A stretch of DNA of 64,000 bases, taken from positions 4,612,001 through 4,676,000 of the forward strand of contig NZ_CP042467.1 of NCBI RefSeq assembly GCF_007993755.1. Reading direction: 5' to 3'. A model generated the notes under the pieces. That model was not told the DNA's origin. It saw only the letters and a list, made by a program, of their open reading frames with translations, and made no database searches. Shown piece by piece: positions 25,877 to 44,396 of this stretch. Made by a program: the position numbers and the translations under genes. How positions within the stretch are numbered: position 1 is the first letter of the stretch; every line of letters starts with the position of its first letter. Source of the DNA: Microvenator marinus. Lineage in GTDB: Bacteria > Myxococcota_A > Bradymonadia > Bradymonadales > Bradymonadaceae.

Positions 25877-26290
25877 CTATTCATCTTTCAACGCTTCGCG
25901 CAAGGTTTCTGAAGCTTGGAACACCCGCTGTAGCGCATCACCAAGCAACCTTCCTCCAAGTCGTCTTCCTTGCGCCCTGTGGTCAACTGCAAGTCTCCCG
26001 ATCAGGGCCGCGGGCATGGGATATCTAGGCAATTGCTTGCCAAGCACGGATGCTGCATCCTTCGACAACACAGAAGCCATACTCAAAGTATAAAATCCAA
26101 GGACGGGAGGCAGTCCAGACTCAATCTCGGAAGTCGAAGCCTCCATCACATAGGCTCTGCCGACGTCAGCTTCGTGATTGGTATGGGCGTGTTTCAAGAA
26201 GTAGTCGTCTAGTGCCTTCACTCCACAGTGAAATCCGGAGTCTTTGTCATCCGGCTTGATGGCTCGAATTCGTGAGGCTTGGCTACTCAT
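25877..26290 (-). CDS. GNAT-family toxin (TacT-like), C-terminally shortened
   Basis: The protein matches the start and middle of TacT-like acetyltransferase toxins: FHCGVKALDDYFLKHA, GFYTLSMASV, then the acetyl-CoA loop GRLAVDHRAQGRRLGGRLLG. Family members usually run about 160-175 residues and end with DAKD..A..FYE.FGF-type strands; this one stops at 137 residues right after the helix following the CoA loop. TacT toxins acetylate aminoacyl-tRNA. Loss of the last strands probably disables or alters this. It overlaps the antitoxin gene by eight bases. Confidence 0.75.
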   Translation of the reverse strand: MSSQASRIRAIKPDDKDSGFHCGVKALDDYFLKHAHTNHEADVGRAYVMEASTSEIESGLPPVLGFYTLSMASVLSKDAASVLGKQLPRYPMPAALIGRLAVDHRAQGRRLGGRLLGDALQRVFQASETLREALKDE

Positions 26291-26627
26291 CGTCCTTCTT
26301 TAGTGCCTTTCGAAGTCGGTCTCCTGGAAGAGGTGGACTTTCCCGAAGTTCAGAAATCTTCTTCATGGCTTCGTCTGAGAGTTCAATTTGCGAACTTCTC
26401 AAGGCCCATTCAAGTGTGGTGAGAGTAGGTGTTGTAAGTTCGCAGAGCGGCCCAAGACTCGACGGGTCTTGAGTCACAAGTTTTCTGCCTTGCCGGATCT
26501 CAATCACGGCCTTCAAAAAGAGTGAAAGTGCTTCATCGATGATTTGGCTACGACTGAGCCCAAGTTGGTCTGCCAACTCTTGAATGGCTGTTCCACGACT
26601 TTCCGGTATGGTTGCTTCAACTCTCAT
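26283..26627 (-). CDS. Ribbon-helix-helix antitoxin
   Basis: The ATG at 26627 is taken, with GGAAGGAG upstream; the earlier in-frame start lies across the ribosome site. The N-terminus (MRVEATIPESRGTAIQELAD, then QLGLSRSQIIDEALSLFLKA) is a typical ribbon-helix-helix DNA-binding module. The C-terminal tail would bind the toxin. It overlaps the GNAT gene start by eight bases and lies directly behind a perfect palindrome that is likely its own operator. Confidence 0.8.
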   Translation of the reverse strand: MRVEATIPESRGTAIQELADQLGLSRSQIIDEALSLFLKAVIEIRQGRKLVTQDPSSLGPLCELTTPTLTTLEWALRSSQIELSDEAMKKISELRESPPLPGDRLRKALKKDDE

Positions 26628-26638
26628 AAATTCTCCTT

Positions 26639-26691
26639 CCCTCAATTTTGAGGGTATAGTGAGGTATAGCGGGTTTTGATTTCTAGTTCAA
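26639..26691 (-). promoter_or_regulatory. Promoter and palindromic operator of the GNAT toxin-antitoxin operon
   Basis: On the minus strand TTGAAC (26691-26686), a 17-bp spacer and TATACC (26668-26663) form a good promoter. Just downstream the perfect 16-bp palindrome CCCTCAATTTTGAGGG (26639-26654) lies between promoter and antitoxin start. This placement suits repression by the antitoxin. Confidence 0.7.
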
Positions 26692-27130: not shown

Positions 27131-27592
27131 CTAGAATTCCGGCATTGCACAACCGATATCATCCGCTGCTTCTTGAAATTTCTTGTCGATATAGGGCTGG
27201 AGATGGACCCCGATGTAGGCGAGGGACGCGAAGGATATTGAGAGCAGGAAGACAAGACTCATGGCCACCATCTTCACGCGGGGTTTTTCAGGGGAGATAG
27301 TCCCTAAGAGGGCTATTGCAACGGGTAGTAGACCAAAAGCTCCGAGCTTCAGATCGTGGTTTCCGGTGACCCATACGCCGAGTCCGAATCCTGCCAACAA
27401 ACATCCGAAATAGATGGCGGACTGAAGCAAAGGCCCAATCTCAGCTTCCCAACGGCTCGGAAATCGGAAAACCATCGCAGCAGCAACACCAAACGTCACA
27501 AAATCAAAGGGCGCCACCCGTTGTGCGGGGAAGAAGGCAAAGGATGCGGCGCTAATCAGGACAGCGACTATGATGGCGATACGTGTGTACAT
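27131..27592 (-). CDS. Small membrane protein of a local paralogous family (copy 1)
   Basis: The ATG at 27592 follows GGAG by five bases. The 153-residue protein has an N-terminal hydrophobic segment, then APFDFVTFGVAAAMVFRF, LLQSAIYFGCLLAGFGLGV and two more TM-like segments. The core plan, (P/A)-x-DF-x-x-FGV ... SA-x-Y ... (A/S)-x-FG-x-GV, recurs in three other genes of this window (30041, 32128, 32602). I do not recognise the family. Copy 1 is the most divergent; it lacks the Cys-rich start of the mature region seen in the others. An upstream heptamer box is shared with the other copies. Confidence 0.75.
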   Translation of the reverse strand: MYTRIAIIVAVLISAASFAFFPAQRVAPFDFVTFGVAAAMVFRFPSRWEAEIGPLLQSAIYFGCLLAGFGLGVWVTGNHDLKLGAFGLLPVAIALLGTISPEKPRVKMVAMSLVFLLSISFASLAYIGVHLQPYIDKKFQEAADDIGCAMPEF

Positions 27593-27612
27593 GGAAACTC
27601 CGAGAGAACCCA

Positions 27613-27667
27613 AGACTAAGCGAGGGCTATGAAAAGAGTGTACACCGGATGTGAAATCTATGTGAAT
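27613..27667 (-). promoter_or_regulatory. Triple-heptamer box plus -10 for membrane-protein copy 1
   Basis: Read on the minus strand, ATTCACA, TTTCACA and GTGTACA are separated by exactly 4 bp each (plus-strand positions 27661-27667, 27650-27656, 27639-27645). After exactly 20 bp comes TAGTCT (27618-27613). The ATG is 46 bp past the box. The same layout stands before the other two transcription units of this family. Confidence 0.7.
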
Positions 27668-27732
27668 GAATTGCTCCCATTACCAGCCCGATTCTGATAG
27701 GGTCCGTAGCCCTTTAGCTCGATCGGAAGTTT

Positions 27733-28764
27733 ATGAAGTACCTGTTTATCCTCCTCTTGTGTTTCAGTGTGTCGTGCGCGGACGACACAAAAAAGAAGTC
27801 TTTCACCGAAGCTCCCGACCAGGGAATGGACGTTGAAGACTTCGAGATGCCCGACCAGTCAACAAGTCAGCCAGATCAGTCAACCAGTCTGCCAGATCTC
27901 GAGGAGCTCCCCGACCAGAGCCCAGAACCTGACCAACCCGTTGAGTCGGGCCCCATCAAAATAACGTCTTGGAATGTTCTGTGTTTACGCGAGGATCCGA
28001 CCGAGGAAACATTCTGCAACACTGAACTCGGCGAGTCGTATGTGCGCTCGCCGGAGCAGTTGGAGGCGATTCGCCAACACATACTGGCGCAGGAGACCGA
28101 CCTCCTCTTCCTGCAAGAGGTGGAGAATATCGCTGCCGTGGAGAATCTCCTCCCCGGTTGGGAAGTCGACGTCATCGGCGAGGGTAGCCTAAAGCTCGCG
28201 CTCGCTCGTCCGCAGGGCTCCACCGCCGAAGTCCTCAACGTAAGTGCACTCACCGAATTGGACCTCGGAACAACTGCCTTAAGGCAGGGTTTGGTGGCTC
28301 AAGTCGAGCACGCGGGAACGACCGTCCACATCATGTCTGTGCATCTCAAATCCGGCTGCCAGATTGCCCCGTTTGACTCGCCCTCCAACAGCTGTGTGGA
28401 GCTTCGGCAACAGCTCGAGGTCCTCAAGACCTGGGTTCAGGAGCGGGAATCGCTGAGTCAGCCCTACATGTTGGTCGGCGACTTCAACCGAACCATGGAG
28501 AATTTCGACCCTTTCATCGTTGAGCTTGAGGGAGCTGCAGGAAGACCACTCTTGCGCCTCACCACAGGCCAGCGACCAAGCTGCTGGGACCACCTGCCGG
28601 AAGCACCGAGCTATCCATCGTTCATTGACCACCAGATCGTGTCACCGTCACTCGTAGACGCATGGGGAACACCCACGCTGGATATCTACCAATTTAACGA
28701 GACCTATCCATATGCCTGGCTCTACATCAGTGACCATTGTCCAATCTCGTCGAGCTTCGAATGA
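27733..28764 (+). CDS. Endonuclease/exonuclease/phosphatase-fold lipoprotein
   Basis: The protein has lipobox SVSC and then a linker of repeated PDQS units (residues ~30-75). An EEP (DNase I-like) domain follows with its motifs in order: ITSWNVLCL, LFLQEVEN, IMSVHLKSGC, MLVGDFNR, DHQIV and ISDHCPI. The catalytic Glu, the GDFN Asp/Asn and the final SDH are all present, so it is probably an active metal-dependent phosphodiesterase outside the cytoplasm, for instance a secreted DNase. It overlaps the next start by four bases. Confidence 0.85.
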   Translation: MKYLFILLLCFSVSCADDTKKKSFTEAPDQGMDVEDFEMPDQSTSQPDQSTSLPDLEELPDQSPEPDQPVESGPIKITSWNVLCLREDPTEETFCNTELGESYVRSPEQLEAIRQHILAQETDLLFLQEVENIAAVENLLPGWEVDVIGEGSLKLALARPQGSTAEVLNVSALTELDLGTTALRQGLVAQVEHAGTTVHIMSVHLKSGCQIAPFDSPSNSCVELRQQLEVLKTWVQERESLSQPYMLVGDFNRTMENFDPFIVELEGAAGRPLLRLTTGQRPSCWDHLPEAPSYPSFIDHQIVSPSLVDAWGTPTLDIYQFNETYPYAWLYISDHCPISSSFE

Positions 28765-30044
28765 ACGTCCGCCTCCTGATTGCACTCGTCTTTTTCTCGT
28801 CCGTGGCGGCTGCCCAGCCTGCAGACGATCAAATTGGAAACGCCGAATACCTCACGCTCTTCCCGGAGCTGAGGCAAGCCGCTGCGCCTGAGATGGTGAC
28901 TCCCGGCCTGCGCATCTCCTACGGCGCGATTTCGGGCGGGCAGGGCACCGGCGGAGGCGGCGTCATCCAGTACGACGTGGTGGCCAGGGACGGGCAGACC
29001 GTGGTGTTGAATCAGGTGAACTATGGCGACCTCGGAGCCGGCGTAGTGCCTCTGGGGCAGACCTTAGCACTTGGCATTCCAGGGCTTGGGCCGGCATGGA
29101 TTGCCCCGGCCGCACTGGTCAATGCCGAGGCGGTGGCCGGTCAAAACCTGAGCGTCACGCGGGTCAACAAAGAGGTGGCCGGCGCACCCCGCGAGGTGGT
29201 CCGGTTTGAAACCACCACGTCCAACGGCAGCCGAATCGTAGACGAGTTTAGCGCCCAGAGTGGCCTCACGGTGTTCAGCAGCGAGGGCACGAACGAAGCC
29301 GGCTCTCAACTGAATCTCCTTTCGGCCACGCAAACTACCTTCCCGTGGGAGCCAGATACGGCCCCCAATTGGGCGCGGCAGGGCGTGAATCTGGTGTACA
29401 CCGGCACCAAGACCACCACCATCCCCGGCGCAAATCCGGTGGCACAAGAGGTGGCTGTGAACGTGGAGATTGCACTTGCGACCTTGCGATGGTCTACCTT
29501 CGTGCAAACCACCACCATCGGGGGCATCGCCGCCGGGACAGGTACAAGCGTCACGGGCGTTGCGCAGCTCTCAGGAGCCTTCTGGTTGCCGAAATCCGCG
29601 CTTTCCGCCGAGATCCCAGCCGAGGCTACAATCATCCATCAGGACGCCGATACGGGCGCCACCACGCTTCTGGTAGGCGACGCCGAAACCATCTCACTGG
29701 AACAACGCCTCAGCGGTGCAACCATCACCACCACGTACAGCCGAGACCTGGGCGTTCTGGTTGCGCAACGCATTCAGCAGGCCGGCGTATCGGCTGTGGA
29801 AGACACCTTCATCCAGTTGACGGGAGGTAGCGATTTGGTGGCTCTGAATCAGGAACCCGCCCTGCCCGAGAACAACGCACCGGGCCCAGGTACCAACCCT
29901 GACCCGAACCCGGCGGGTGGCGGTGGCTCCAAAGGTAGCTCGGGTGGATGCAACACGCCTTCTGGCGCGCTCAGTTTCTGGGCCATTCTCGCCTTGTTCT
30001 TTGTGTCCTTGAGTCGAAGGATGACCCTTTCCCAAAAGGCCTAG
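28761..30044 (+). CDS. Exported protein with C-terminal membrane/sorting tail
   Basis: The start at 28761 gives an ATGA overlap with the EEP gene and a clean signal peptide ending AAAQP. The ~400-residue body is rich in Thr, Gly and Val strands and has no motif I recognise. The end has a GGGGSKGSSGGC linker, a hydrophobic helix (LSFWAILALFFVSL) and SRR, like MYXO-CTERM-type tails with one Cys. It is probably surface-anchored and expressed with the nuclease lipoprotein. The function is unknown. Confidence 0.65.
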   Translation: MNVRLLIALVFFSSVAAAQPADDQIGNAEYLTLFPELRQAAAPEMVTPGLRISYGAISGGQGTGGGGVIQYDVVARDGQTVVLNQVNYGDLGAGVVPLGQTLALGIPGLGPAWIAPAALVNAEAVAGQNLSVTRVNKEVAGAPREVVRFETTTSNGSRIVDEFSAQSGLTVFSSEGTNEAGSQLNLLSATQTTFPWEPDTAPNWARQGVNLVYTGTKTTTIPGANPVAQEVAVNVEIALATLRWSTFVQTTTIGGIAAGTGTSVTGVAQLSGAFWLPKSALSAEIPAEATIIHQDADTGATTLLVGDAETISLEQRLSGATITTTYSRDLGVLVAQRIQQAGVSAVEDTFIQLTGGSDLVALNQEPALPENNAPGPGTNPDPNPAGGGGSKGSSGGCNTPSGALSFWAILALFFVSLSRRMTLSQKA

Positions 30045-30856
30045 AAATCGAGGCCACATCCCCGAAACTCGACGAATCGTTCTGGACTGTGGTCGGCACT
30101 TAGAATGAAAAGTGAGAGTAGCCCCGACACGATGATGAGAGGCCCGAGTACCGAGGCTCGGAAAACGAGCCGTTTGGGATAGAGCGCACCCACGACGGCC
30201 AAGACGGCAGGAATCAGCTTGAAGTAGCCTGTGTCGAAATTGAATCGCCCAATGATGAGAGCGCCAAGCACAAACGACGCCACCATAAACCCGATATAGA
30301 TGGCGGATTCTACAGCACGCGTGCGCCGGCTCTCGGGGCCAAAAAGTCGAAAAGCCGCAGCGGCAGCAATACCGAGGACTACGAAGTCGAAGGGCGTTGC
30401 AACCGGGAGCTCCCAGCGTGATGCTAGGTGCGTCCAAGTGGGCTCATGGGTGCAGCGCGACACATCCTCGCCCAAAACCATAAAGACCACGAGAATGGTG
30501 GCCGAAACGAGCACGGGTAAGAGAACGAATTGGCGCAACGCCACGAGCTTCGGCGAGAGCGAGCCGAGGGTGGCCAAAACAATTCCGAGAATTCCGAAAT
30601 AGCCGTTTTGCAGAGTCGACTCTTGAGCAACCATCGCGCCCACGCCAAAACTTGCGACCAGCAAGCTCAAGTAGACGGCGGAATGAAAATCCTCACTGGC
30701 CTCGAAGCGTTGCTGCAGAAAGAGGCGATAGAAGAGACCCGCCGAAACACCGAAAACAAGGTAGTCGACCGGATTTGCTACAGGCGTTGAAGTACAGGCC
30801 CACGCCATTGCGGGGGCGGACAAGACCAAGAGTGTGATTGTGATTCGTGTCAACAT
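30041..30856 (-). CDS. Duplicated-unit membrane protein of the local family (copy 2)
   Basis: This 271-residue protein contains the ~125-residue family unit twice. The first has PVDYLVFGVSAGLFYRLF and SAVYLSLLVASFGVGA; the second, from about residue 150, has PFDFVVLGIAAAAAFRLF and SAIYIGFMVASFVLGA. Each unit predicts about four TM helices. A Cys follows the signal-like N-terminus (AWACTS). GGAG precedes the ATG. It is unassigned functionally. Its stop overlaps that of the convergent exported protein. Confidence 0.78.
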   Translation of the reverse strand: MLTRITITLLVLSAPAMAWACTSTPVANPVDYLVFGVSAGLFYRLFLQQRFEASEDFHSAVYLSLLVASFGVGAMVAQESTLQNGYFGILGIVLATLGSLSPKLVALRQFVLLPVLVSATILVVFMVLGEDVSRCTHEPTWTHLASRWELPVATPFDFVVLGIAAAAAFRLFGPESRRTRAVESAIYIGFMVASFVLGALIIGRFNFDTGYFKLIPAVLAVVGALYPKRLVFRASVLGPLIIVSGLLSLFILSADHSPERFVEFRGCGLDF

Positions 30857-30886
30857 TTCGAACTCCGCGATTCATTGCGTCGAATC

Positions 30887-30941
30887 AACCTAGAAGACCT
30901 CCTTGAAGTGGGTTTGCACACGGTATGAAAATCGTGTGAAA
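30887..30941 (-). promoter_or_regulatory. Triple-heptamer box plus -10 for membrane-protein copy 2
   Basis: Minus-strand TTTCACA, TTTCATA and GTGCAAA are separated by 4 bp each (plus positions 30935-30941, 30924-30930, 30913-30919). Exactly 20 bp later comes TAGGTT (30892-30887). The box ends where the divergent AlbA-like gene begins, so that gene may also be affected. Confidence 0.7.
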
Positions 30942-30949
30942 TGTGCTGC

Positions 30950-32104
30950 ATGAATGCTTCAGAAGTCCTCCAACTCATCAAGTATGGCGAGAATTCACGC
31001 GTGTCGCTTAAGCGGGACAACCTCCGCCCTGACATGCTTGCCCGCGATATTGTGGGCATGTCGAACTCATTCGGCGGTCATATCATCATGGGCGTTCAGG
31101 ACGATGGAAGCATCAGTGGGGTGGAGCTCCCCGGCCTCAAAGAATGGCTAGTGAACACGGTCTTTGCCAACTATGTGTATCCTCCAGTTCCTTTGATGCT
31201 CGAGGAGGTTGAAGTTCTGGCCGGCAAATATGTGGCTATCATCACGGTCTCCGAAGGCCTCGCAAAGCCTTACGTGGTTCGAAACACCGGCCTTGAAGAC
31301 ATCTATGTGCGAACCGGTAGCGTCTCTAAGTTGGCAACCCGGGAGGAGAGTGCCCTGCTTTTTGCCGGTGGAGGCCTCGTACGCTCAGAACTACTTCCGG
31401 CATTGGGAACCAATCTGGATGATTTGGATCTGGTACGTCTCGAGGATTATCTCCACAACCTCGTGGGTGACACGGTGTTACCGGAAGGTTCCGAGGCCTG
31501 GGTGGAACGGTTATGTGGACTCGGTTTCATGGTCGAACAAGGAGAGGTGTGTTGCACCATCGCGGGACTTCTGCTCTTTGGGCACGCGCCTCGCCAAAGT
31601 CTTCCTCAGGCCGGTATTCGATGGAAGGGTTTTGACGAAGACGCGCTATTGCACGGTCCGCTGCTGCCTTTGGGAGCCGCGAGCCCAGGTGGTGCGCGGC
31701 GCATCAAGGAGCTGGGCTTGCTCGATGACGTGTTTGCTAGAATTCGGTCCTTCTGCGCCGACTACCCGCACGAGGCCATCCTGGAAGCCGTGCTGAACGC
31801 CGTATTGCATCGCGACTGGACCCGTGGCTCCGAGGTGGAGATTCTAAAGGATGCCGACAGAATCGAAATCACGAGCCCTGGTGCCCTCCCGAACTTCATG
31901 ACTCTCGAAAAGGTCCTCGCCGGTCAGCGTTTTCAACGAAACTCCATCATCTCGGACGTGCTCCGAGACTATGGTTATGCGGAAAGGCCAGGCATGGGCG
32001 TTCGGCGGAAGATTGTTCGGCTTACCCGCGAGCTTACTGGTAAAGACGCCGTCTTCGAGTCTACTGACGACTATTTCAAGGTCATCATTCCGGCAAAGAC
32101 CTAA
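30950..32104 (+). CDS. AlbA_2 / ATP-binding (COG2865-type) putative regulator
   Basis: The N-terminal ~110 residues match the Schlafen AlbA_2 fold: YGENSRVSLKRD, DIVGMSNSFGGHIIMGVQDD, then DIYVRTGS. The C-terminal part has a histidine-kinase-like ATPase motif (EAVLNAVLHRDW ... ITSPGALP ... YAERPGMGV). Proteins with this pairing are annotated as transcriptional regulators or RecG-like factors, and several AlbA_2 proteins act in phage defence. The start is uncertain between ATG codons at 30941 and 30950, with no clear ribosome site. It is divergent from membrane-protein copy 2. Confidence 0.75.
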   Translation: MNASEVLQLIKYGENSRVSLKRDNLRPDMLARDIVGMSNSFGGHIIMGVQDDGSISGVELPGLKEWLVNTVFANYVYPPVPLMLEEVEVLAGKYVAIITVSEGLAKPYVVRNTGLEDIYVRTGSVSKLATREESALLFAGGGLVRSELLPALGTNLDDLDLVRLEDYLHNLVGDTVLPEGSEAWVERLCGLGFMVEQGEVCCTIAGLLLFGHAPRQSLPQAGIRWKGFDEDALLHGPLLPLGAASPGGARRIKELGLLDDVFARIRSFCADYPHEAILEAVLNAVLHRDWTRGSEVEILKDADRIEITSPGALPNFMTLEKVLAGQRFQRNSIISDVLRDYGYAERPGMGVRRKIVRLTRELTGKDAVFESTDDYFKVIIPAKT

Positions 32105-32127
32105 GGATTGTAACGCCAGCAGGTTGT

Positions 32128-32574
32128 TTAGAACTCATGGGATTCGGATAGTTCTGAGTGGAGACTGGCATCTTGGGAGCCTTCGTAGGCCAGCAAGACC
32201 ACCAATGAGCCGATTGCAGAAAGCACGACAACAGGGAGGAGCAATACGATGCGAAAGAAGAGGCGTTTGGGGTAAATTGCGCCCACGAAAGCAAGGAAAA
32301 CCGCAGGCAATGTGAAGATCCCAGGCCAGATTCTAAACTCGTCCGTCACGAAGACCCCAACTCCGAAACTCGCGAGCAAGAGGCTCATATAGACCGCCGA
32401 GTTCGTGTCTTCGCTCCAGTCTAGGGCCCATTGCACGAAGAGCCGGTAGCTGACGGCCACTGTCACGCCAAAGAAGAGGAAGTCCAACGGCTGCACCGCG
32501 AGAAGACCAGGGCACGCCCATGCGAGCGAAGGGGTGATGAATGCGGCGATCGCCAGGAAGAGTCGGGAATTCAT
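32128..32574 (-). CDS. Small membrane protein of the local family (copy 3)
   Basis: This 148-residue member has PLDFLFFGVTVAVSYRLF and SAVYMSLLLASFGVGVFV, with a Cys right after the N-terminal hydrophobic segment (AWACPG). GGAGG lies six bases before the ATG. Only 27 bp separate it from copy 4 upstream on the same strand, so both are presumably transcribed from the box at 33085-33139. Four TM segments are likely. Confidence 0.75.
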   Translation of the reverse strand: MNSRLFLAIAAFITPSLAWACPGLLAVQPLDFLFFGVTVAVSYRLFVQWALDWSEDTNSAVYMSLLLASFGVGVFVTDEFRIWPGIFTLPAVFLAFVGAIYPKRLFFRIVLLLPVVVLSAIGSLVVLLAYEGSQDASLHSELSESHEF

Positions 32575-32601
32575 TGGGAGCCTCCATGAAGCTAGTGCTA
32601 C

Positions 32602-33057
32602 TCAAAATACGATCTCAGTGGTGACCGGATTTGCGTCGAAGTTACATTTGTGAAGGTCCTGCGCCGCGAAGGAGAACAAGGCGAGCAACGCGGAGATGCA
32701 GAAGACTGGCACCAAAACAATCGCGTTCATCATCAGACTCTTTGTGCGCAGGGACCCAAATGCGGCGAGCGCACCCAGGACCGCATGAAACATATTCGGC
32801 TCCAAACTCAACTCGCCGGATACAATCACGCCCGCCCCGAAACTCGCGATCAAAAAGCTCAGGTAGATGGCCGAATGAAACTCATCACTTCCGTCCACCA
32901 AACGCTCCAAAAAGAGGCGGTAGAACGCGCCGGCCGCGACCCCGAACGCGAGGAAATCGAGAGGATTGTAGCTTACCGGCGCTGGGCCCGAGCACGCGAG
33001 CGCAAGGGCAGGGGCCAGAAAGAGCGAGGTGAGTGTGATGGCAAATGGCTTGTACAT
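32602..33057 (-). CDS. Small membrane protein of the local family (copy 4)
   Basis: This 151-residue member has ALACSG at the end of the signal-like segment, then PLDFLAFGVAAGAFYRLF and SAIYLSFLIASFGAGVIV, and two more hydrophobic stretches. GGAGG precedes the ATG by seven bases. It is the first gene of a two-gene unit with copy 3. A lipid-anchored or N-terminally cleaved membrane protein is possible; the function is unknown. Confidence 0.75.
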   Translation of the reverse strand: MYKPFAITLTSLFLAPALALACSGPAPVSYNPLDFLAFGVAAGAFYRLFLERLVDGSDEFHSAIYLSFLIASFGAGVIVSGELSLEPNMFHAVLGALAAFGSLRTKSLMMNAIVLVPVFCISALLALFSFAAQDLHKCNFDANPVTTEIVF

Positions 33058-33084
33058 GGCGAACCTCCGAGTCGAGTTTCCCGA

Positions 33085-33139
33085 ACTCTAGAGCCCACCC
33101 GTGGAATGCCTGTGCACGCGATGTGAAACGTGTGTGAAT
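33085..33139 (-). promoter_or_regulatory. Triple-heptamer box plus -10 for membrane-protein copies 4 and 3
   Basis: Minus-strand ATTCACA, TTTCACA and GTGCACA are separated by exactly 4 bp (plus positions 33133-33139, 33122-33128, 33111-33117). TAGAGT (33090-33085) follows exactly 20 bp later. The gap to the ATG is 53 bp. No -35 hexamer is visible, as expected for an activator-dependent promoter. Confidence 0.7.
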
Positions 33140-33256: not shown

Positions 33257-33290
33257 GATTCACAATTCGGCTTCACAGTATGATTCACAA
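33257..33290 (+). repeat. TTCACA-type direct repeats upstream of the CRISPR-side promoter
   Basis: GATTCACAA occurs at 33257-33265 and 33282-33290, with a related CTTCACA at 33271-33277 between them. They lie just upstream of the -35 at 33299 and may bind a regulator of the DUF6119/cas side. The hexamer resembles the heptamers of the divergent membrane-protein promoters, but the period is 12-13 bp rather than 11. Confidence 0.4.
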
Positions 33291-33492: not shown

Positions 33493-35106
33493 ATGTTGTT
33501 GCCGAAAGTGTTGGAGAAGTCGAGCGGTGTAGATGGTCAAACTCAAGGGGGCTCCATTGAAGAACAGTTTGATCGACAAATAGTGTCTGAGTCGACATCG
33601 CTTCCGCGCCCTTCGGGGCGCGGCCCCAATCATGATGTATCACTCTATCTAGCCAAAGAAGGGGTTGACTTAGAAGCCGTTTTTGAAGGGAAAGGGGCGG
33701 AAGAATTGGAGTTTGACCAAGAGGGGGTTGTCGGCAGGTTTAAGTGCAGTCGGAGAAAGCAACCTGGCTGGGTCGGTTTCTTTCGGAAACATCTGGTGAG
33801 TGAGATCGACCTTAGCGTTGAAAGCGTTTCAGTTGCCATTGCATTCAGGGTTTCCGAACGCGTCTTTGTTGTCACTTTTGGTGGCGGAAGACATTTGTTG
33901 GACGCCGCAAAGCTTGAGCCGCAGTTTGGTCTTGTAGTCGCGTCTCATCTCATACCTATCGATGAAATGCATCAATTGACCAGCTCCACTCTTTCCAAAT
34001 TTCCGCAAGAGTCTCGCTGTACTAGTCTCAACAAAAAGCCAGCGGAGTTTTTTGGAATAGATTTGGAACTAGAAGATGTACGCAAGGTGGTCGGCGCAAG
34101 TAGTGACATTGTAAACCGAGTCGCAGGCTCGAACCACTTGAAGATGCACTCGTTTCATGGAGAGTTGTCTGAACTTATGGAGGTTTGCCCACGATTCTTG
34201 GAGTGTTTTGCAAAGGGGATAGAGCCTAGTTACGAATTCCTCAAAAACCTTACGAGGGTTGAAAAGAAGGATCCGAGATATCAGCAACTTGAAGCGATTT
34301 TGGAGGCTGAAGTGGCTAAAACTCCGACTTCTTTCGATCTCAACGTTGAAGGCGAATCCTGGGAAAGAACCAAGAACGTGCGTGTGTACTATGGGAAATC
34401 TTCCGAGGATTGCGACTTCGATACGTTTATTGAGGCGGCATTGCGGATCGCAAAGAAGGCGGGAGTTCCCCTTGGGAAAGTCAAACTTGAGTTAAGTGAT
34501 GAACAGGACGAGGCCCTTTATGGAGGCGCTGTGTTAGCATCACTCAGCGGAGAAGTTGAGCATAGCGAACGCCTCTATCTTATCATGGCTGGGCGGTGGT
34601 TCGAAATTGGAGAGAGTTATGTAGAAAGTCTGGATGATAGGATCGCCGCGCTGGAGCAGGACTGGAAACTTCCAGCATGGAAAGGCTCTGAGGACGACTA
34701 CAACAAGTCCGTCGCAGAAAAGTTTGGTTGGATCAATCTTGATAAGAATCTCATCCAAATGGGCAGGTCAAAGGGCGCATTTGAAGCTGCCGACCTTGCT
34801 GGGGAAGATGTCTTGTTTCACGTCAAATCTGGGACGTCATCTGCTGCGCTAAATCACCTGTACGGACAGATTCATACTGCTGCTGTTCTCTTAGGCAAAA
34901 GCCGCGCGGCTCGAGAGAAATTGACCGAGAAGTCAAGAACTGGTCGTCCGATCGGATTTGTAGCAGGTATCGGAAGAGAGAAATCTGACGGTCCACTACT
35001 TGGAAGGATGATTGTTGCGAAAGTCGGACTCCTGCAGTGTGCTGCCAATGTTCGGAAATTGGGTTTCGAGTTCAGCGTCGCTCGCATCAAAATCGCGAAA
35101 AGTTAG
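33493..35106 (+). CDS. TIGR04141/DUF6119-family protein next to CRISPR-Cas
   Basis: The ATG at 33493 has AGGAGG seven bases upstream. The family-like start (VSLYLAKEGVDLEAVFEG) begins near residue 48, so the first ~45 residues are an extension; their coding region contains an 8-bp UUCG hairpin at 33604-33623, so a later start is not excluded. The C-terminal region has GWINLDKNLIQMG, then FEAADLAGEDVLFHVKSGTS and SAALNHLYGQI. The spaced E/D and H-x-K resemble PD-(D/E)xK nuclease signatures typical of this sporadically distributed, defence-linked family. A nuclease activity is inference. It lies 135 bp before cas3 on the same strand. Confidence 0.7.
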   Translation: MLLPKVLEKSSGVDGQTQGGSIEEQFDRQIVSESTSLPRPSGRGPNHDVSLYLAKEGVDLEAVFEGKGAEELEFDQEGVVGRFKCSRRKQPGWVGFFRKHLVSEIDLSVESVSVAIAFRVSERVFVVTFGGGRHLLDAAKLEPQFGLVVASHLIPIDEMHQLTSSTLSKFPQESRCTSLNKKPAEFFGIDLELEDVRKVVGASSDIVNRVAGSNHLKMHSFHGELSELMEVCPRFLECFAKGIEPSYEFLKNLTRVEKKDPRYQQLEAILEAEVAKTPTSFDLNVEGESWERTKNVRVYYGKSSEDCDFDTFIEAALRIAKKAGVPLGKVKLELSDEQDEALYGGAVLASLSGEVEHSERLYLIMAGRWFEIGESYVESLDDRIAALEQDWKLPAWKGSEDDYNKSVAEKFGWINLDKNLIQMGRSKGAFEAADLAGEDVLFHVKSGTSSAALNHLYGQIHTAAVLLGKSRAAREKLTEKSRTGRPIGFVAGIGREKSDGPLLGRMIVAKVGLLQCAANVRKLGFEFSVARIKIAKS

Positions 35107-35241
35107 TGGAGGCACGGTGCGTGCCGATAACTCATTTACTATCCTGAATTGACCAAGTTCGTGTTGACCCCCTTTGGGTTCTATGTTGCCATCGTGCGCA
35201 AGAAACAACATGACCGGGTGAACTTTTTTTGAGGAGTTCGT

Positions 35242-37584
35242 GTGAACTATTCTGCTTTTTTTGAAGCAGCTACTCGCTTTCCGCCATATCCTTATCAGGA
35301 GAAACTGGCGGAGGGCCCGTGGCCGGATCGATTAAAAATTCCTACTGGGCTTGGTAAGACTGGAGCGGTCGCATTGGCATGGGCCTACCGGCATCTGGAA
35401 GGCTCTCCCGATGCACATACGCGCCTAGTTTGGTGCTTACCAATGAAAGTCTTAGTCGAGCAAACCGCGGATGTAATCGAGGGTTGGCTGGCTAGTTTGG
35501 AGCCAACGTTTTCATCTGCAGGCAAGACCTTGCCTCGAGTTCAGAGATTGCTTGGGGGGCATGTTGACGCCGATTGGACCAACACCCCAGAGGTTCCTAC
35601 TGTGATCGTCGGCACTCAAGACATGTTGCTCTCGCGTGCGTTGATGCGCGGATACGGTATGAAGCGTTACGCTTGGCCTATGCATTACGCCTGGCTTCAT
35701 AACGATGCGCTCTGGGTGTTCGATGAGACACAGCTTATGGGAGTCGGTGTTGAGACCAGTGCCCAGCTAGCTGGACTCCGCAAGAAGCTTGGGAGTTTTC
35801 GGCCGACCCATTCATTGTGGATGAGTGCTACTTTGGGGGATCAGCAACTCGACACGGTCGATCACCCGTTGGAGAAGTTAGGGCCTCCGCTATCCTTGGG
35901 GGAGAAGGACTTTCAGCATGACGCAGTGGTAAAGAGAACCCGGTCCAAGAAGTCAGCTACCAAAGCAGAAGCCACCGTAGCCAAAGACGTGGATATCAGC
36001 GAACTCGTCTCGAACGTCCTCAAGGAGCATCAAGAGGGAAGTCTTTCTCTCGTGATTCTAAATCGGGTTTCTCGTGCGCAAGAGGTTTTTGAGGGGCTTC
36101 TGAACGCTGGAAGAACGCTAGAAAATACCGCTCTCTTGCATTCGCGGTTTAGACGAGGTGATCGCGCCAAACACATGGAAATGTTGAAGGCGGAAGGGGA
36201 TCGAATCATTGTGTCGACCCAAGTGATCGAAGCTGGAGTAGATATCAGCTCAAAGACCATGTTTACGGAGTTGGCGCCCTGGTCCTCGCTAGTTCAGCGA
36301 TTCGGCCGTTGCAGCCGTGGCGGCGAGTTCCACGATGCGCGGGTCTTTTGGGTAAACATTGAACCCAAGGATGAAAAGGATGACTTATGTCTGCCCTATA
36401 CCCTGAAGGAGCTTGATGAGTCGCGAGCGATCCTGAGTTCACTTGGCGATGTGGGGCCTGAATCACTTTCAAGCGTAAACTGGCAGCCGACCCCTGTTGT
36501 GCGTCCAGTGCTCAGGCGTAGAGACCTTCTAGAACTTTTTGACACCTCGGCGGATCTCTCCGGAGACGATCTGGACGTCTCTCGTTATGTCCGTGACAGC
36601 AGCTCGCCGGACGTATTTGTATACTGGCGTAGTTGGGAAGGTGAGAAGCCGTCTGAAAAAGACAAGGAGCTTCAGTCTCCACATGAGGAGGAGTTGTGCC
36701 GCATTTCTATTTCGCAGGCGGTCAAGTTTCTCAAGGACACAGCTTATAGCTTTAACCATCTTACCGAACGTTGGGAGCTTTGCGGAAAGTCGGTGGTTCC
36801 CGGCAAAACCTATCTTGTTCCAGCAAGTGCTGGCGGTTACACACCGGAACTTGGCTTTACTGGAAAGAAGCTTAAGAAAGGCGAGGAAGTCGAGGTCTTC
36901 AAAACGAGTGAAGTAGAGCCTGAATCAATGGATTCGGATCCACGCTCGTTCAAGAAGTCTTGGATTTCACTCGCGGACCACACTGAGCATGTTGTCACTG
37001 AATGCAAAGCGCTCCTAGTCAGCCTGGGGATCGATGGCCAGACCAGTGAGTTGATGTTGCGCGCCGCTCGCTGGCATGACGCAGGCAAGGCTCACGAAGT
37101 TTTCCAGCATGTTCTGGCCGCTGATAAAGCGCCAAATCCTGGTACATGGGCAAAATCTGCTCTCGAGGGGAATAAGCCAACCAGGAAGTTCTTCAGGCAC
37201 GAGCTAGCCTCGATGCTTATCTACAAACAATACTTCCCCGAAGACGACTTGGGGGCCTTCATCATTCTGGCTCACCACGGGAAGGTAAGGTTGAGCCTGC
37301 GTGCCCTACCCGATGAAAATCGACCAGGCGCGGCTGACACAGTATTCGCGCGAGGCGTATGGCATGGTGACGTGGTCAGAGCTGCGGAACTTGGTGGAGG
37401 AACACGCTTTGATGACACCGATTTGGACCTTTCGTTTGTCCGCCTAGGACCGAACTCGTGGGCAGAACGCATGCTTCGATTGCGAGACTCGCCTGATATG
37501 GGGCCATTTCGAATGGGCTACTTGGAGGCGATCTTACGAAGTGCCGACCAACGTGCGAGCGCCAAGGAGGCCGGAAATGTTTGA
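35242..37584 (+). CDS. cas3: Cas3 helicase-nuclease, type I-G (C-terminal HD)
   Basis: The GTG at 35242 follows GAGGAG. The helicase part has the Walker A IPTGLGKTGAVALAW (~33-47), WCLPMKVLVEQT, the DExH-like box VFDETQLMG (~158-166), SATLG, STQVIEAGVDIS and QRFGRCSRGG. The HD nuclease is at the C-terminus, as is characteristic of this subtype: RWHDAGKAHEVFQHV (~610-625) and ILAHHGKVR. Cas3 unwinds and degrades DNA found by the Cascade complex. The end overlaps csx17 by eight bases. All expected motifs are present. Confidence 0.95.
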   Translation: MNYSAFFEAATRFPPYPYQEKLAEGPWPDRLKIPTGLGKTGAVALAWAYRHLEGSPDAHTRLVWCLPMKVLVEQTADVIEGWLASLEPTFSSAGKTLPRVQRLLGGHVDADWTNTPEVPTVIVGTQDMLLSRALMRGYGMKRYAWPMHYAWLHNDALWVFDETQLMGVGVETSAQLAGLRKKLGSFRPTHSLWMSATLGDQQLDTVDHPLEKLGPPLSLGEKDFQHDAVVKRTRSKKSATKAEATVAKDVDISELVSNVLKEHQEGSLSLVILNRVSRAQEVFEGLLNAGRTLENTALLHSRFRRGDRAKHMEMLKAEGDRIIVSTQVIEAGVDISSKTMFTELAPWSSLVQRFGRCSRGGEFHDARVFWVNIEPKDEKDDLCLPYTLKELDESRAILSSLGDVGPESLSSVNWQPTPVVRPVLRRRDLLELFDTSADLSGDDLDVSRYVRDSSSPDVFVYWRSWEGEKPSEKDKELQSPHEEELCRISISQAVKFLKDTAYSFNHLTERWELCGKSVVPGKTYLVPASAGGYTPELGFTGKKLKKGEEVEVFKTSEVEPESMDSDPRSFKKSWISLADHTEHVVTECKALLVSLGIDGQTSELMLRAARWHDAGKAHEVFQHVLAADKAPNPGTWAKSALEGNKPTRKFFRHELASMLIYKQYFPEDDLGAFIILAHHGKVRLSLRALPDENRPGAADTVFARGVWHGDVVRAAELGGGTRFDDTDLDLSFVRLGPNSWAERMLRLRDSPDMGPFRMGYLEAILRSADQRASAKEAGNV

Positions 37585-39685
37585 ACTTGAACTCAAAGGC
37601 TGTCGTACTCGGCCGCTGGCCCACTACCTGAAATCCATAGCTGTCTTACGACTGGTTTCTCAACAGGTGGACCCGGAAGCCCGCGGCTTCTGGCGATCCG
37701 ACCACTTCGTGCTTCAATCCAGCCTCGACCGCGAAGAGTTGTTGAGCTTCTTTGCCCACGGTTATGAGCCGTCGCCGATCATTGCGCCCTGGAACGGTGG
37801 GAGCGGGTTTTATCCCAAGGATAACTCCACCGCGCTCGAGACCATTCTTGGAAGCACTGCGCCGAGATTTTCTCGGTATCAGGAGTCGATTCGCGCTGCA
37901 CAAAGAGTCGTTGAAGAGTTTGGTTTGGATGGAAAGCCCGACTCGGATACCAAGGGTGAACTCATCAACCAAATGCGCAACCGTCTTCCGGATGATGCGG
38001 TGGAATGGATTGATGCTGCTCTTGTGATGACCACGGAGTTGTCGTCCGGCGACTTCAAGGACGTTCCCAAGTTTCCGCCCGTCCTGGGGACCGGCGGCAA
38101 CGATGGACGTTTGGAATTCACAAATAACTTCATGCAGCGACTTCTGGATGCTTTGAGCCCAAACGGGGAACCTCTCGAAGGTTCTTTGGGATGGCTTGCT
38201 TCAGCGCTATTCGAGGACCTAACTCAAATCGCTGGTTCGGGGGCAATTGGCCAGTTTTACCCGTCGGCCGCAGGCGGGGCCAACTCCACAACCGGATTCG
38301 AAGGAAACTCTGCGTTCAACGTCTGGGATTTCATCCTCATGATGGAAGGCGCAATCGCGTTCTCTTCTGCAGCAGTGAAGCGCCTTGAAGCAGACCCAAA
38401 TGGAGCATTAAGTGCACCATTTGTGGTGCGACAAACGACATCGGGATACGCGTCCTCGTCTGACCAAGACAAGTCACGGGCGGAAATGTGGCTTCCACTT
38501 TGGGAAGAGCCAGCCTCTTTTCCAAGCATTCAGGCTTTGCTTGGTGAAGGACGTGCCAGAGTAGGTCGGCGCAACGCAAGCAACGGGCTTGATTTTGCAC
38601 GTGCGGTGGCATTGCTTGGAATCGATCGCGGTATCACAGCTTTTGAAAGGTATGGCTTTCAGGAGCGCAATGGGCTCTCAACGTTCGCCATTCCCCTTTC
38701 ACGCTTCGAGGTGCGGCCGAATCCTGATGTTGAGCTTTTGAGGAGTATTGATGCTTGGTTGAGCATCTTCCTTTCCCGTGCTGGGGGTGAACACGCTCCA
38801 GGCTCAGTCAGACGCGTGGGTCGACAGCTCGAAGACGCGGTTATGAAAATGACCCAGCGGCCGGGACACTCATCTACGCAAGATGTGTTGGTAGCTCTGG
38901 GTCGGGCACAAGCAGCCCTATCGAACAGCCACAAATGGGCGCAGGAAAATGTACGCCCGATGCCAGAACTGAAAGAAAACTGGCTTGAAAGAGCGAGCGA
39001 CAACTCTTCGGAGTGGCGACTCGCCTCCGCATTGGCTTCAATACAAGTCAATGGTCACGGCAAGCTGCGTACGGCGATCGAACCGGTCACGGACAAGGGC
39101 GACTGGGTGAAAGAATACACGCCAGATCACGTCCGTGAGGGTAACGTCGAGGATCTCTTGCACGGACTCTTACATCGTTGGCTACTTGAACTCGAGAACA
39201 AGCCTAGTCGCGAGCCACAGTCGGCCAATCCAAACCCGAATTGGTTTGTCGAGGCGAGCCGCTTTGCCAGACTTGAAGACATCAATCACTTCCTAAACCA
39301 TCAGGTTGATGAGGCGAGGCTCTATGATCTCATTCGCGCACTGATGTTGGTGAAGCCCGTTGAGGACACCAAACAGGCTGAGAGTGACGTTATCGTTCCA
39401 TTGGATTACGGGATCGTTCGACTTGCTCATTCCCCCTGGTTGGTCCGCGAGGTGGGACCAAGCCGTGACCCAGCAATCTTGAGGCAGCTGGTTGCGGGGA
39501 AAAATGGGGTAATCTCGGCCGGGCGTAGGCTTAAGGTAAGCGGTCTGGCCCCGGCAGTGAACACAAAAGACATTGATGTCTCGCAGACCCGCGCAAAACG
39601 GATCGCTGCGGTGATTGCATTTCCGATTTCACTACAATCAATCAATAAGATTGCAGACTACATACTCAAACCAAAACAAGACTGA
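37577..39685 (+). CDS. csx17: Csx17 (Cas8g), type I-G large subunit
   Basis: The start is set to the ATG at 37577, six bases after AAGGAGG and overlapping the cas3 stop; the earlier ATG would be inside cas3. The N-terminus MFELELKGCRTRPLAHYLKS, then IAVLRLVSQQ, is typical of Csx17. At 702 residues it fits the family. It replaces Cas8 in type I-G complexes and should recognise the PAM and bridge to Cas3. The gene order cas3-csx17-csb1-csb2 supports this strongly. Confidence 0.92.
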   Translation: MFELELKGCRTRPLAHYLKSIAVLRLVSQQVDPEARGFWRSDHFVLQSSLDREELLSFFAHGYEPSPIIAPWNGGSGFYPKDNSTALETILGSTAPRFSRYQESIRAAQRVVEEFGLDGKPDSDTKGELINQMRNRLPDDAVEWIDAALVMTTELSSGDFKDVPKFPPVLGTGGNDGRLEFTNNFMQRLLDALSPNGEPLEGSLGWLASALFEDLTQIAGSGAIGQFYPSAAGGANSTTGFEGNSAFNVWDFILMMEGAIAFSSAAVKRLEADPNGALSAPFVVRQTTSGYASSSDQDKSRAEMWLPLWEEPASFPSIQALLGEGRARVGRRNASNGLDFARAVALLGIDRGITAFERYGFQERNGLSTFAIPLSRFEVRPNPDVELLRSIDAWLSIFLSRAGGEHAPGSVRRVGRQLEDAVMKMTQRPGHSSTQDVLVALGRAQAALSNSHKWAQENVRPMPELKENWLERASDNSSEWRLASALASIQVNGHGKLRTAIEPVTDKGDWVKEYTPDHVREGNVEDLLHGLLHRWLLELENKPSREPQSANPNPNWFVEASRFARLEDINHFLNHQVDEARLYDLIRALMLVKPVEDTKQAESDVIVPLDYGIVRLAHSPWLVREVGPSRDPAILRQLVAGKNGVISAGRRLKVSGLAPAVNTKDIDVSQTRAKRIAAVIAFPISLQSINKIADYILKPKQD

Positions 39686-40639
<954 letters not shown>

Positions 40640-40642
40640 TCC

Positions 40643-42211
40643 ATGATTCAAATGGACATCAAATTCTTGGCTGGAAAGGTACACGCGACGCCATGGGATC
40701 ACCATGTGAACGAGGGCGTCGTAGAATGGCCGCTCTCGCCCTGGCGTATTCTGCGCGCATTGATTGCTACGTGGCACATAAAAGCTCAGGAGATACCGCG
40801 TGAGGCGGTGCAAGAGTTGATTGAGGCGATGTGTGGTGTGGACCCTCAGTTTGCGATGCCAAAGCAGATTGGCTCTGGCCATACGCGTCACTATATGCCG
40901 ACTCGAACGTCCACTACCAAGGTGTTCGACACGTTCTTGATCGTTTCGGCCGAGGATCGTTTAGGGGTGCGTTGGCCAGTGGACCTGAGTCCCGAGCTTC
41001 ACGATGTGCTGGAAACACTAGTTGCCCGCATTGGCTATCTAGGGCGTGCTGAGGCTTGGGCGAGTGTCGAGCTTAGTAAGCGCGAATGGGACGAGTCCGA
41101 AGCCATCTGTTCAACCAAACGAACCGAAGAAGGGGAGCTGGTGCGTCTGCTCAACGCCTATCCACCAAGTCAATACGAGGCTTGGAGGGAAGGCATGATG
41201 CAGGGTTGGTCACACCACGCGTTGGTGGCCGCTGCCGAGAAGAAGGGAAAACCTCTCGACGAAGTTAAACTCTCGGCCAAAGAGAAAGCCAAGATTGAAG
41301 AGCGGCTGCCCGAATCCCTCTTTGATGCTCTGCAACTTGATACTGCTGACATCCAAAAGGATGGTTGGAGTTTGCCACCAGGAGCCCGGTGGGTGGAGTA
41401 CTACCGACCACATGCGGAACCACCGGATCTGACGAGAATCTCCTATGATACCGGAGGTCAACTTCCTCAGGTTGCCACCTTCGCCCTCTATTCCAATGTG
41501 TTGCCGCTCTTTACGGACGCGTTTCACGTCGCTTCTATTATGCATCGCGCACTTGTATCCAGGGATCCTTCAAACCCGTTATTCTCGGGTCGCGGTGCGG
41601 ACGGTGAGCCATTGAAAGGGCATGAGCACGTATTTATCTTTCCAGAACACGAAAGTGGAAAGAAGCACATCTCCAAGATCTCGCTCTATCTCGAGAGTGG
41701 ATTTGACAACGATGCTGTGAAAGCTCTGCTCACCTTGACCAAGCTCTATAGCCAGGAAGGCGAATTCCAAGAACAGAAACTCGTTCTCCTTGAGTTAAGT
41801 GAAGCAAAGAGCGCCCAATGCAAAGCGGTGGGCAGTAGCAAAGTTTGGGAATCGTACACCCCGTTTGTAGCTACTAGGCACCCCAAGATTCGGCGAAATG
41901 GTACTGCAAAGTACGAGAACGGCCTCGTCGTTGGAAGTTCGGAGCATGACTTACGTCGCCTGCTTGCAGAAGGCGGCTATCCTGGTCCGATTAACGTCAC
42001 AGTGGTTGACTCGACGACGCTGGCTAAGGAAGAGCGGTGGTTGAAGTTTCGGACACACCGGAAAAGCAGACGGGGTGCGCGTGGGCCACATTTACCCACA
42101 GGCTACCGAATCGAGTTTGCTGAAGTCCAAGCTGGGCCGATCGCCCTTGGATACGGTGCCCACTTCGGATTGGGGATGTTCGTGCCAGTAGAAATCTCTG
42201 GAATAAGTTAA
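40643..42211 (+). CDS. csb2: Csb2 (Cas5-Cas6 fusion, GSU0054 family)
   Basis: The N-terminal half begins IQMDIKFLAGKVHATPWDHH and WPLSPWRILRALIATW, as in Cas5-like GSU0054 proteins. The C-terminus carries a RAMP glycine-rich loop (GPIALGYGAHFGLGMFVPV) of the Cas6 part. In type I-G this protein both caps the crRNA 5' end and cuts the repeat hairpin, so no separate cas6 is needed and none is seen. Length 522 fits the family. The hicA promoter overlaps or follows its end. Confidence 0.93.
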   Translation: MIQMDIKFLAGKVHATPWDHHVNEGVVEWPLSPWRILRALIATWHIKAQEIPREAVQELIEAMCGVDPQFAMPKQIGSGHTRHYMPTRTSTTKVFDTFLIVSAEDRLGVRWPVDLSPELHDVLETLVARIGYLGRAEAWASVELSKREWDESEAICSTKRTEEGELVRLLNAYPPSQYEAWREGMMQGWSHHALVAAAEKKGKPLDEVKLSAKEKAKIEERLPESLFDALQLDTADIQKDGWSLPPGARWVEYYRPHAEPPDLTRISYDTGGQLPQVATFALYSNVLPLFTDAFHVASIMHRALVSRDPSNPLFSGRGADGEPLKGHEHVFIFPEHESGKKHISKISLYLESGFDNDAVKALLTLTKLYSQEGEFQEQKLVLLELSEAKSAQCKAVGSSKVWESYTPFVATRHPKIRRNGTAKYENGLVVGSSEHDLRRLLAEGGYPGPINVTVVDSTTLAKEERWLKFRTHRKSRRGARGPHLPTGYRIEFAEVQAGPIALGYGAHFGLGMFVPVEISGIS

Positions 42212-42216
42212 GAGTG

Positions 42217-42232
42217 GTACTATAATTAGTAC
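42217..42232 (+). promoter_or_regulatory. Palindromic operator with embedded -10 before hicAB
   Basis: GTACTA-TAAT-TAGTAC is a perfect inverted repeat that contains TATAAT at 42221-42226. It sits 5 bp after the csb2 stop and 11 bp before the hicA ATG. Binding of a repressor such as HicB here would block the -10. A -35 is not clear. Confidence 0.65.
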
Positions 42233-42243
42233 TAGGTGGGGTT

Positions 42244-42489
42244 ATGGAAGAAGACATCTTGTATCTCCAACAAAGCAAGACTGTTCGTTTTGCTAGGCTG
42301 GTTCGGATTTGCACCAAGTGGTTTGGAGAACCGAGAGTCACGGGTAGCCATCATGTGTTCAAGACTCCATGGAAGGGCGATCCGAGAGTTAATCTTCAAA
42401 GGGCCGGCAAGGATGCAAAGCCTTATCAGGTTAAACAAGTTATCGCGGCGCTCGAAAGGCTGTCTGGAGGAAATGAAGATGAACTTTGA
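42244..42489 (+). CDS. hicA: HicA-type mRNA interferase toxin
   Basis: The 81-residue protein has the HicA core GSHHVFKTPWKGDPRVNLQ, with the catalytic histidine region GSHH, and the C-terminal YQVKQVIAALERL helix. Its N-terminus is slightly longer and more polar than in many HicA proteins. AGGTGGGG precedes the ATG. HicA cleaves mRNA through its double-stranded-RNA-binding-like fold. It overlaps hicB by 11 bases and lies between csb2 and the CRISPR array. Confidence 0.88.
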   Translation: MEEDILYLQQSKTVRFARLVRICTKWFGEPRVTGSHHVFKTPWKGDPRVNLQRAGKDAKPYQVKQVIAALERLSGGNEDEL

Positions 42490-42832
42490 AGAATTGGCGA
42501 GCAGGTATAGCTACAACGTGTCGTGGTCGCCGGAAGACGAGGTTTATATCGGGCGAGTTGTGGAATGGCAGAGTCTGGCTGCGCACGCCGATTCCCCAGA
42601 ACAGGCGCTAGCGGAAATCCTCAACGTTGTGGCAATTGCCATAGAGGATTGCGAAGAAGACGGAGACGAATACCCGATGCCGATAAACCAACGGGGATTT
42701 AGTGGCCGTTTCAATGTCAGGTTGCCCCAACACCTGCACAGGGACTTGGTCCTATTCGCAGAACGCAACAACGTTTCGTTGAATCAGGCAGTAACCGAAC
42801 TACTCTCCGGTGCAGTAGCGAAGCACCTCTAA
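42479..42832 (+). CDS. hicB: HicB-type antitoxin with ribbon-helix-helix end
   Basis: The ATG at 42479 is favoured over 42473 because GGAGG then sits eight bases upstream. The N-terminal part (YNVSWSPEDEVYIGRVVEW ... SLAAHADSPEQALAEI) is the partly degraded RNase H-like HicB fold. The C-terminal part (GRFNVRLPQHLHRDLVLFAE, then NNVSLNQAVTELL) is the DNA-binding module. It should block HicA and repress the operator at 42217-42232. The stop is only 15 bp from the terminal CRISPR repeat. Confidence 0.9.
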   Translation: MNFEELASRYSYNVSWSPEDEVYIGRVVEWQSLAAHADSPEQALAEILNVVAIAIEDCEEDGDEYPMPINQRGFSGRFNVRLPQHLHRDLVLFAERNNVSLNQAVTELLSGAVAKHL

Positions 42833-43398
42833 CGAATGGCGGGGCACGTTCTAATGGGGTCGCATCCATACGGATGCGGAGGGCTGGCCTTTATGGGCGG
42901 TTGGAATCGGAGGTGTTCCTGCTTCAATGGGGCCGCATCCATGCGGATGCGGAGGGCGCGGTGGAGAGGAAGGGTCTCGCCGGTGCGGTCGGCGTTGCTT
43001 CAATGGGGCCGCATCCATGCGGATGCGGAGGGTTGTACGTCTTTGAACCGGTTTGGGGTGGCTTGCCTGGGCTTCAATGGGGCCGCATCCATGCGGATGC
43101 GGAGGGCTACGGCGAGCACATCGAGGAAGCGGCGCAACTCTTGCTTCAATGGGGCCGCATCCATGCGGATGCGGAGGGTTTGATGTTTCTGTCTGGCTCA
43201 TTGATTCCTCTGTATTTGCTTCAATGGGGCCGCATCCATGCGGATGCGGAGGGTTCGATCAAGCAAGGGGCAAACACGCCCCGCCCGGGCTTCAATGGGG
43301 CCGCATCCATGCGGATGCGGAGGGGGCCCCGATAGCGCCCACGATGACGAGCGCGGCCGAGTGCTTCAATGGGGCCGCATCCATGCGGATGCGGAGGG

Positions 43399-43438
43399 TA
43401 CCAGCAGGCTGCGGTTGATGCCGTGCTTCAATGGGTGC
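43399..43438 (-). repeat. Spacer containing 11 bp of repeat sequence
   Basis: This 40-bp spacer includes GCTTCAATGGG at 43425-43435, identical to the first 11 bp of the repeat. The true repeat starts 14 bp further on at 43439. It looks like a slipped duplication at a spacer-repeat junction. Confidence 0.85.
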
Positions 43439-44104: not shown

Positions 44105-44396
44105 GCTTCAATGGGGCCGCATCCATGCGGATGCGGAGGGGCGTGTGGCGAAGGCAATCAGCCGTAAGGAGGACAAGTGCTTCAATGGGGCCGCATCCAT
44201 GCGGATGCGGAGGGTGATGGCGTTCATACCGGTGAACCCTAACGAGCGTCGCTTCAATGGGGCCGCATCCATGCGGATGCGGAGGGGCGTGTGGCGAAGG
44301 CAATCAGCCGTAAGGAGGACAAGTGCTTCAATGGGGCCGCATCCATGCGGATGCGGAGGGTGATGGCGTTCATACCGGTGAACCCTAACGAGCGTC
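44105..44396 (-). repeat. Exact tandem duplication of a two-spacer block in the array
   Basis: 44105-44250 (two repeats, two spacers) is repeated exactly at 44251-44396. The spacers begin GCGTGTGGCGAAGG and TGATGGCGTTCATACC. Recombination between repeats or replication slippage explains it. Confidence 0.95.

Follow-up and report, generated by a model that had tools for sequence, protein, structure and literature searches.

Operators for two-component regulators of the PhoB/CreB type are widespread among bacteria as switches that activate genes. Response regulators of the OmpR/PhoB family follow a common binding rule, i.e., they recognize direct repeats of 7 bp that are separated by a spacer of strictly 4 bp, as in the S. 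coelicolor PhoP site GTTCACC-N4-GTTCACC (PMC4832192). The PHO box is built of 11-nt direct units, in each of which seven bases are conserved and four are less so (PMC4415409), and the operator of CreB/BlrA, the cre/blr tag, is TTCAC-N6-TTCAC (PMC4689548, PMC3660660). The stretch of DNA analyzed in this study (the window; 64,000 nucleotides, positions 4612001-4676000 of the one-contig 5.85-Mb genome of Microvenator marinus, G000) contains three minus-strand arrays of similar repeats in front of genes for an orphan family of membrane proteins. These sites are very probably activator-dependent promoters of the PhoB/CreB kind, in which a response-regulator array takes the place of the -35 element.

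The arrays were located by pattern matching and by alignment of the promoters. Array 1 (27613-27667) consists of the repeats ATTCACA (27667-27661), TTTCACA (27656-27650), GTGTACA (27645-27639), and TTTCATA (27634-27628), followed by the -10-like hexamer TAGTCT (27618-27613) and, 20 nt further, the ATG at 27592. Array 2 (30887-30941) has the repeats TTTCACA (30941-30935), TTTCATA (30930-30924), GTGCAAA (30919-30913), and CTTCAAG (30908-30902), the -10-like TAGGTT (30892-30887), and the ATG at 30856, 30 nt further. In array 3 (33085-33139), ATTCACA (33139-33133), TTTCACA (33128-33122), GTGCACA (33117-33111), and TTCCACG (33106-33100) precede the -10-like TAGAGT (33090-33085), and the ATG at 33057 follows after 27 nt. 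The initial annotation had described three minus-strand promoter sites of three heptamers each, and all of them are present with 0 mismatches to its pattern, which spans 27613-27666, 30887-30940, and 33085-33138. The chance expectation of this pattern in the window is 0.01, and three sites were found in 0 of 100 shuffles. Throughout the 5.85-Mb genome, arrays 1 to 3 are the sole matches at up to 3 mismatches, and the reversed-pattern control gave 0.

The fourth, degenerate repeat, which the initial annotation had missed, lies 11 bp after the third in each array (TTTCATA, CTTCAAG, and TTCCACG) and is in register, with T, C, and A kept at the same columns in all three. The layout of arrays 1 to 3 is thus 4 × 11 bp, 9 bp, TAGNNT, 20 to 30 nt, and ATG; the 46 to 56 bp previously given between TAGNNT and the ATG had actually been measured from the third heptamer, and the distances are 20, 30, and 27 nt. 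The reported lack of a -35 was borne out, since no -35-like hexamer occurs at the usual distance in any of the three. As expected of OmpR/PhoB-family operators, the direct repeats, each about 7 bp long and separated by 4-bp spacers, recur with an 11-bp period, the last repeat is located at the -35 position, and the -10 follows at a fixed short distance downstream. A gap of 9 bp between repeat 4 and TAGNNT also occurs at the G004, L065, and L038 sites described below (in L038, counted from a sixth repeat). In E. coli PhoB promoters, the -10 is about 10 bp downstream of the last repeat.

When the three promoters were aligned at the arrays, pairwise identity was approximately 0.24 outside the block, which is the chance level, whereas it was 0.70, 0.73, and 0.55 across 11-bp units 1, 2, and 3, respectively, 0.39 across unit 4, and 0.48 in the -10 region. 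The conserved block begins with repeat 1 and stops at TAGNNT. Because the block is conserved while its flanks are at chance identity, it must be held by selection; the family proteins are only 27 to 29% identical to member 1, so that common descent without selection would not have preserved the block and no other sequence.

The membrane proteins are all encoded on the minus strand. Member 1 (27131-27592, 153 aa) has a signal-like N terminus followed by about four hydrophobic helices, and member 2 (30041-30856, 271 aa) is a fusion of two copies of this domain, the second of which gave a separate match in the genome search (G000:4642086-4642409). Member 3 (32602-33057, 151 aa) leads the third transcription unit, and member 4 (32128-32574, 148 aa) follows it after a 27-nt gap and is without an array of its own; as members 3 and 4 lie in one transcription unit, there are three promoters for four genes. 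The four open reading frames therefore hold five copies of one domain, each composed of the signal-like N terminus and about four hydrophobic helices, except that the N terminus is missing from the second copy in the fusion. None of the four proteins matched a Pfam family above the curated cut-off, and no relative was detected in 57 related genomes, 378 genomes of the phylum, the GTDB contigs, or the viral contigs. The family, which had been called unknown from the outset, is a true orphan at the search depths used. The AlphaFold model of member 3 is all helices, with low confidence (pLDDT 53.8, pTM 0.41).

Several other genes surround the family. A gene with AlbA_2 (Schlafen) and HATPase_c_4 domains (30941-32104) lies between the family units, and its listed start codon directly adjoins repeat 1 of array 2, which is thus also in its upstream region. 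Three plus-strand TTCACA words (33259, 33272, and 33284, within 33259-33289) stand upstream of the DUF6119 and cas genes with spacings of 13 and 12 bp; since they are off the 11-bp register, they were not counted as an array. The region 33493-53099 comprises the DUF6119 gene, behind which stands a CRISPR-Cas locus that encodes Cas3 and a protein of the GSU0053 type; a long repeat array in this locus (approximately 42.8-51 kb) is followed by cas2/cas1-like open reading frames, as judged by eye. On the other side, an RHH (CopG-type) gene overlaps the following 137-aa open reading frame (25877-26645), and the two look like a toxin-antitoxin pair.

Further arrays are present elsewhere in the same genome. 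The relaxed pattern TTCAC-N6-TTCAC-N17-TTCA has four exact matches, although only 0.02 would be expected at this base composition, namely array 1 and three new sites at 863681, 2147495, and 2973857, all of which are intergenic. The array at 863681 (L038) runs to a sixth repeat, GTTCATA, which is followed after exactly 9 bp by TAGAGT, and it precedes a 205-aa membrane open reading frame. The site at 2147495 stands before a gene for a VWA protein; neither this site nor the one at 2973857, both of which are looser, has TAGNNT in register. A search with the pattern plus TAGNNT yielded one more strong array (L065, 5146934-5146987), in which TAGTGT follows after exactly 9 bp and which precedes a gene for a 68-aa protein resembling Flp/Fap pilins (28 bits, below the cut-off of 32.2). 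At the new sites, conservation does not extend to repeat 3. Looser patterns also find arrays upstream of other small open reading frames; other three-mismatch matches (L097-L104), mostly within genes, were left out of the count. The pair TTCACA-N5-TTCACA alone gave 19 matches at up to 1 mismatch against 11 for the control and is uninformative without repeat 4. Inspection by eye had suggested homology of the window family to the 205-aa open reading frame of L038 and to the pair at a weaker candidate site, L048, but it received no support from hmmsearch or hhalign.

Among 38 relatives, one genome, G004, which belongs to another genus of the same taxonomic family, has array sites at up to 1 mismatch. 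There are three of them (control, 0), each just upstream of a start codon. Two, 1.4 kb apart, precede genes for small SAF-domain proteins, and the third precedes a gene (L156:6763-8346) in which a pilin-like segment is fused to a YfbK-type VWA protein. Both parts of this protein match products of array-controlled genes in M. marinus, the N terminus the pilin-like protein (E = 6e-11, 48% over 40 aa) and the VWA part the VWA protein (E = 4e-30, 29% over 307 aa); i.e., two modules that belong to separate array-bearing genes in one genome are joined in a single array-bearing gene in the other. This fusion speaks more strongly than any other finding for the array as the mark of a shared regulon, with a putative role in the envelope.

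The exact 20-letter string TTCACA-N5-TTCACA-N16-TTCA-N11-TAGNNT was used to scan the GTDB genomes and occurred in 46 stretches, mostly just upstream of genes, against a chance expectation of approximately 1 or less that assumes uniform bases and is truly higher given the many A+T-rich Clostridia. A plausible start codon is located 24 to 67 bp downstream in about 31 of the 46. Seven encode an OmpR-family regulator of one recognition-helix type, RTVD(T/A)HIKx(L/I)RxK, and in four the neighbors of the array include both a response-regulator gene and a gene that is creD-like or encodes a porin. The order in a Rhodospirillaceae contig (L110) is response regulator and kinase (a creBC-like pair), array, and creD (PF06123, 500 bits), whereas in a Victivallales contig (L144) the array precedes a gene for a CreD-like membrane protein, and the regulator and kinase genes follow. 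In an Omnitrophota contig (L109), a phoBR-like regulator and kinase are followed by the array, a porin, and a PstS-like protein. The string also serves as a probe that retrieves real-looking promoters in many phyla. Recurrent neighbors of the array are seen in L111, L113, L118, L122, L125, L133, L139, L141, L146, and L147; in rumen and other Clostridia, it lies 31 to 32 bp before the start of one conserved protein of about 138 aa that reads like a universal stress protein, and in Lachnospiraceae it precedes one ABC-transporter ATPase.

That the block is common to the three promoters merely through gene duplication and is functionless would fit the position of the family genes, which are paralogues lying together. 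This reading is extremely improbable and is already contradicted by the conservation of the block, the flanks of which have diverged to chance level, and by the arrays elsewhere, which have the same placement at unrelated genes and in another genus. The array may instead bind some other direct-repeat protein, such as the product of the AlbA_2/HATPase gene, which starts at 30941 on the very edge of array 2. We regard this as improbable, because sites of the OmpR/PhoB family have this 7 + 4 spacing (PMC4832192) and the arrays elsewhere adjoin genes for OmpR-family regulators. Binding of a response regulator is suggested by other bacteria, in which such arrays have response-regulator genes as neighbors, and the OmpR/PhoB-type reading of the initial annotation holds up on this point as well as on the fit of its 7-bp repeats and 4-bp gaps (PMC4832192, PMC4415409).

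Six OmpR-family regulators are encoded in the genome, and the genome search placed all of their genes at least about 1 Mb away from the window. The leading candidates for the regulator of the arrays are the PhoB-like R16 (G000:1044471), which has a PhoR/PnpS-like kinase alongside, and the CreB-like R18 (G000:2125664), an orphan. The best NCBIfam matches are PhoB for R16 (264.9 bits; cut-off, 296.2) and CreB for R18 (239.8 bits; cut-off, 273). In a small tree, R16 groups with the array-adjacent PhoBs and R18 with the array-adjacent CreBs. Their recognition helices are RTVDTHVKRLREK (R16) and RTIDSHIRRLRSK (R18), both of which have R where the array-adjacent regulators have T/F/M/C, so that neither is a clean match. 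The promoters of the regulators themselves, considered as carriers of the array, gave only weak two-repeat scores that were no better than those of coding DNA.

As a subcase of the promoter reading preferred here, R16 could be the regulator and the family part of a phosphate-starvation (Pho) regulon, which we hold to be possible but doubtful. The affinity of R16 to PhoB, the PhoB-like character of the array-adjacent regulators in L109 and L145, the porin and PstS-like genes behind the array in L109, and the clustering of R16 with the PhoB of the relative G010 as well as with the array-adjacent PhoBs argue for it. On the other hand, no PstB scored over the NCBIfam cut-off in the genome despite its PhoB/PhoR-like pair, and no pst or phoU gene is beside R16; the former carries mild weight against a classical Pho regulon, and PstB is over the cut-off in only 3 of the 21 genomes of the taxonomic family. 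The array targets in this genome are not phosphate genes. Moreover, R16 and the PhoB of G010 are identical in the recognition helix, but the putative Pho boxes of G010, read by eye, are repeats of the TGTCACA type and not TTTCACA. The pst promoters of relatives gave no strong match when scored with the window heptamers. The other subcase, in which the orphan R18 places the family in a Cre-like regulon related to the envelope or growth, is likewise somewhat unlikely. The letters of the array equal the cre/blr tag (PMC4689548), the arrays of L110 and L144 precede CreD or CreD-like genes that have creBC-like neighbors, and R18 is closest to the array-adjacent CreBs, with which it groups on the tree; however, R18 falls under the CreB cut-off, the residue that follows K/R in its helix is a different one, and it has no adjacent kinase or CreD.

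In the activator-dependent promoter that we favor, a phosphorylated response regulator of the OmpR/PhoB family would bind three to four TTTCACA-like 11-bp direct repeats head-to-tail on one face of the DNA, with the last repeat occupying the position of a -35. The bound regulator would then recruit a sigma-70-type RNA polymerase to the -10 TAGNNT, 9 bp downstream. This would activate all three transcription units of the orphan family at the same time, along with a small envelope set that includes the Flp-pilin-like gene, the VWA-protein gene, and others. A single response regulator might run a small envelope regulon of the orphan four-helix family, the pilin-like and VWA proteins, and the SAF-domain proteins of the sister genus, although we consider this broader proposal rather speculative; if true, the orphan family would help to form a surface or pilus-like structure of an unknown kind. 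In any case, the array, which predicts an ordinary, testable two-component switch, provides a handle on an otherwise unreadable family by tying it to the pilin-like and VWA genes and, in the sister genus, to those for SAF-domain proteins.

The initial annotation had seen in the arrays a code private to the family and a dedicated signal. This part of its reading found no support: arrays of the same geometry precede unrelated genes in M. marinus and in G004, and their letters are those of the cre/blr tag, which has long been known (PMC4689548, PMC3660660). The tag shares its letters and 11-bp period with the window arrays, TTCAC-N6-TTCAC being exact in arrays 1 and 3 and ending in TTCAT in its second half in array 2, and in both L110 and L144 genes of the creBC type adjoin a CreD or CreD-like gene that is preceded by a full array with TAGNNT. 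The tag itself is two repeats, whereas the window arrays have four and are without creBC or creD nearby. The PHO box has the same build of 11-nt direct units, and the L109 array sits between phoBR-like and porin/PstS-like genes; its letters, however, are CTGTCAT in E. coli and apparently TGTCACA in G010, in contrast to the TTTCACA-like repeats of the window, and the array targets seen in this genome are not phosphate genes. The PhoP sites of S. coelicolor and M. tuberculosis share heptamer length and spacer with the window arrays, but the letters of the last heptamer, the bacteria, and the targets differ. The promoter kind is therefore a known one, and the novelty is its set of targets, which includes an orphan family of membrane proteins.
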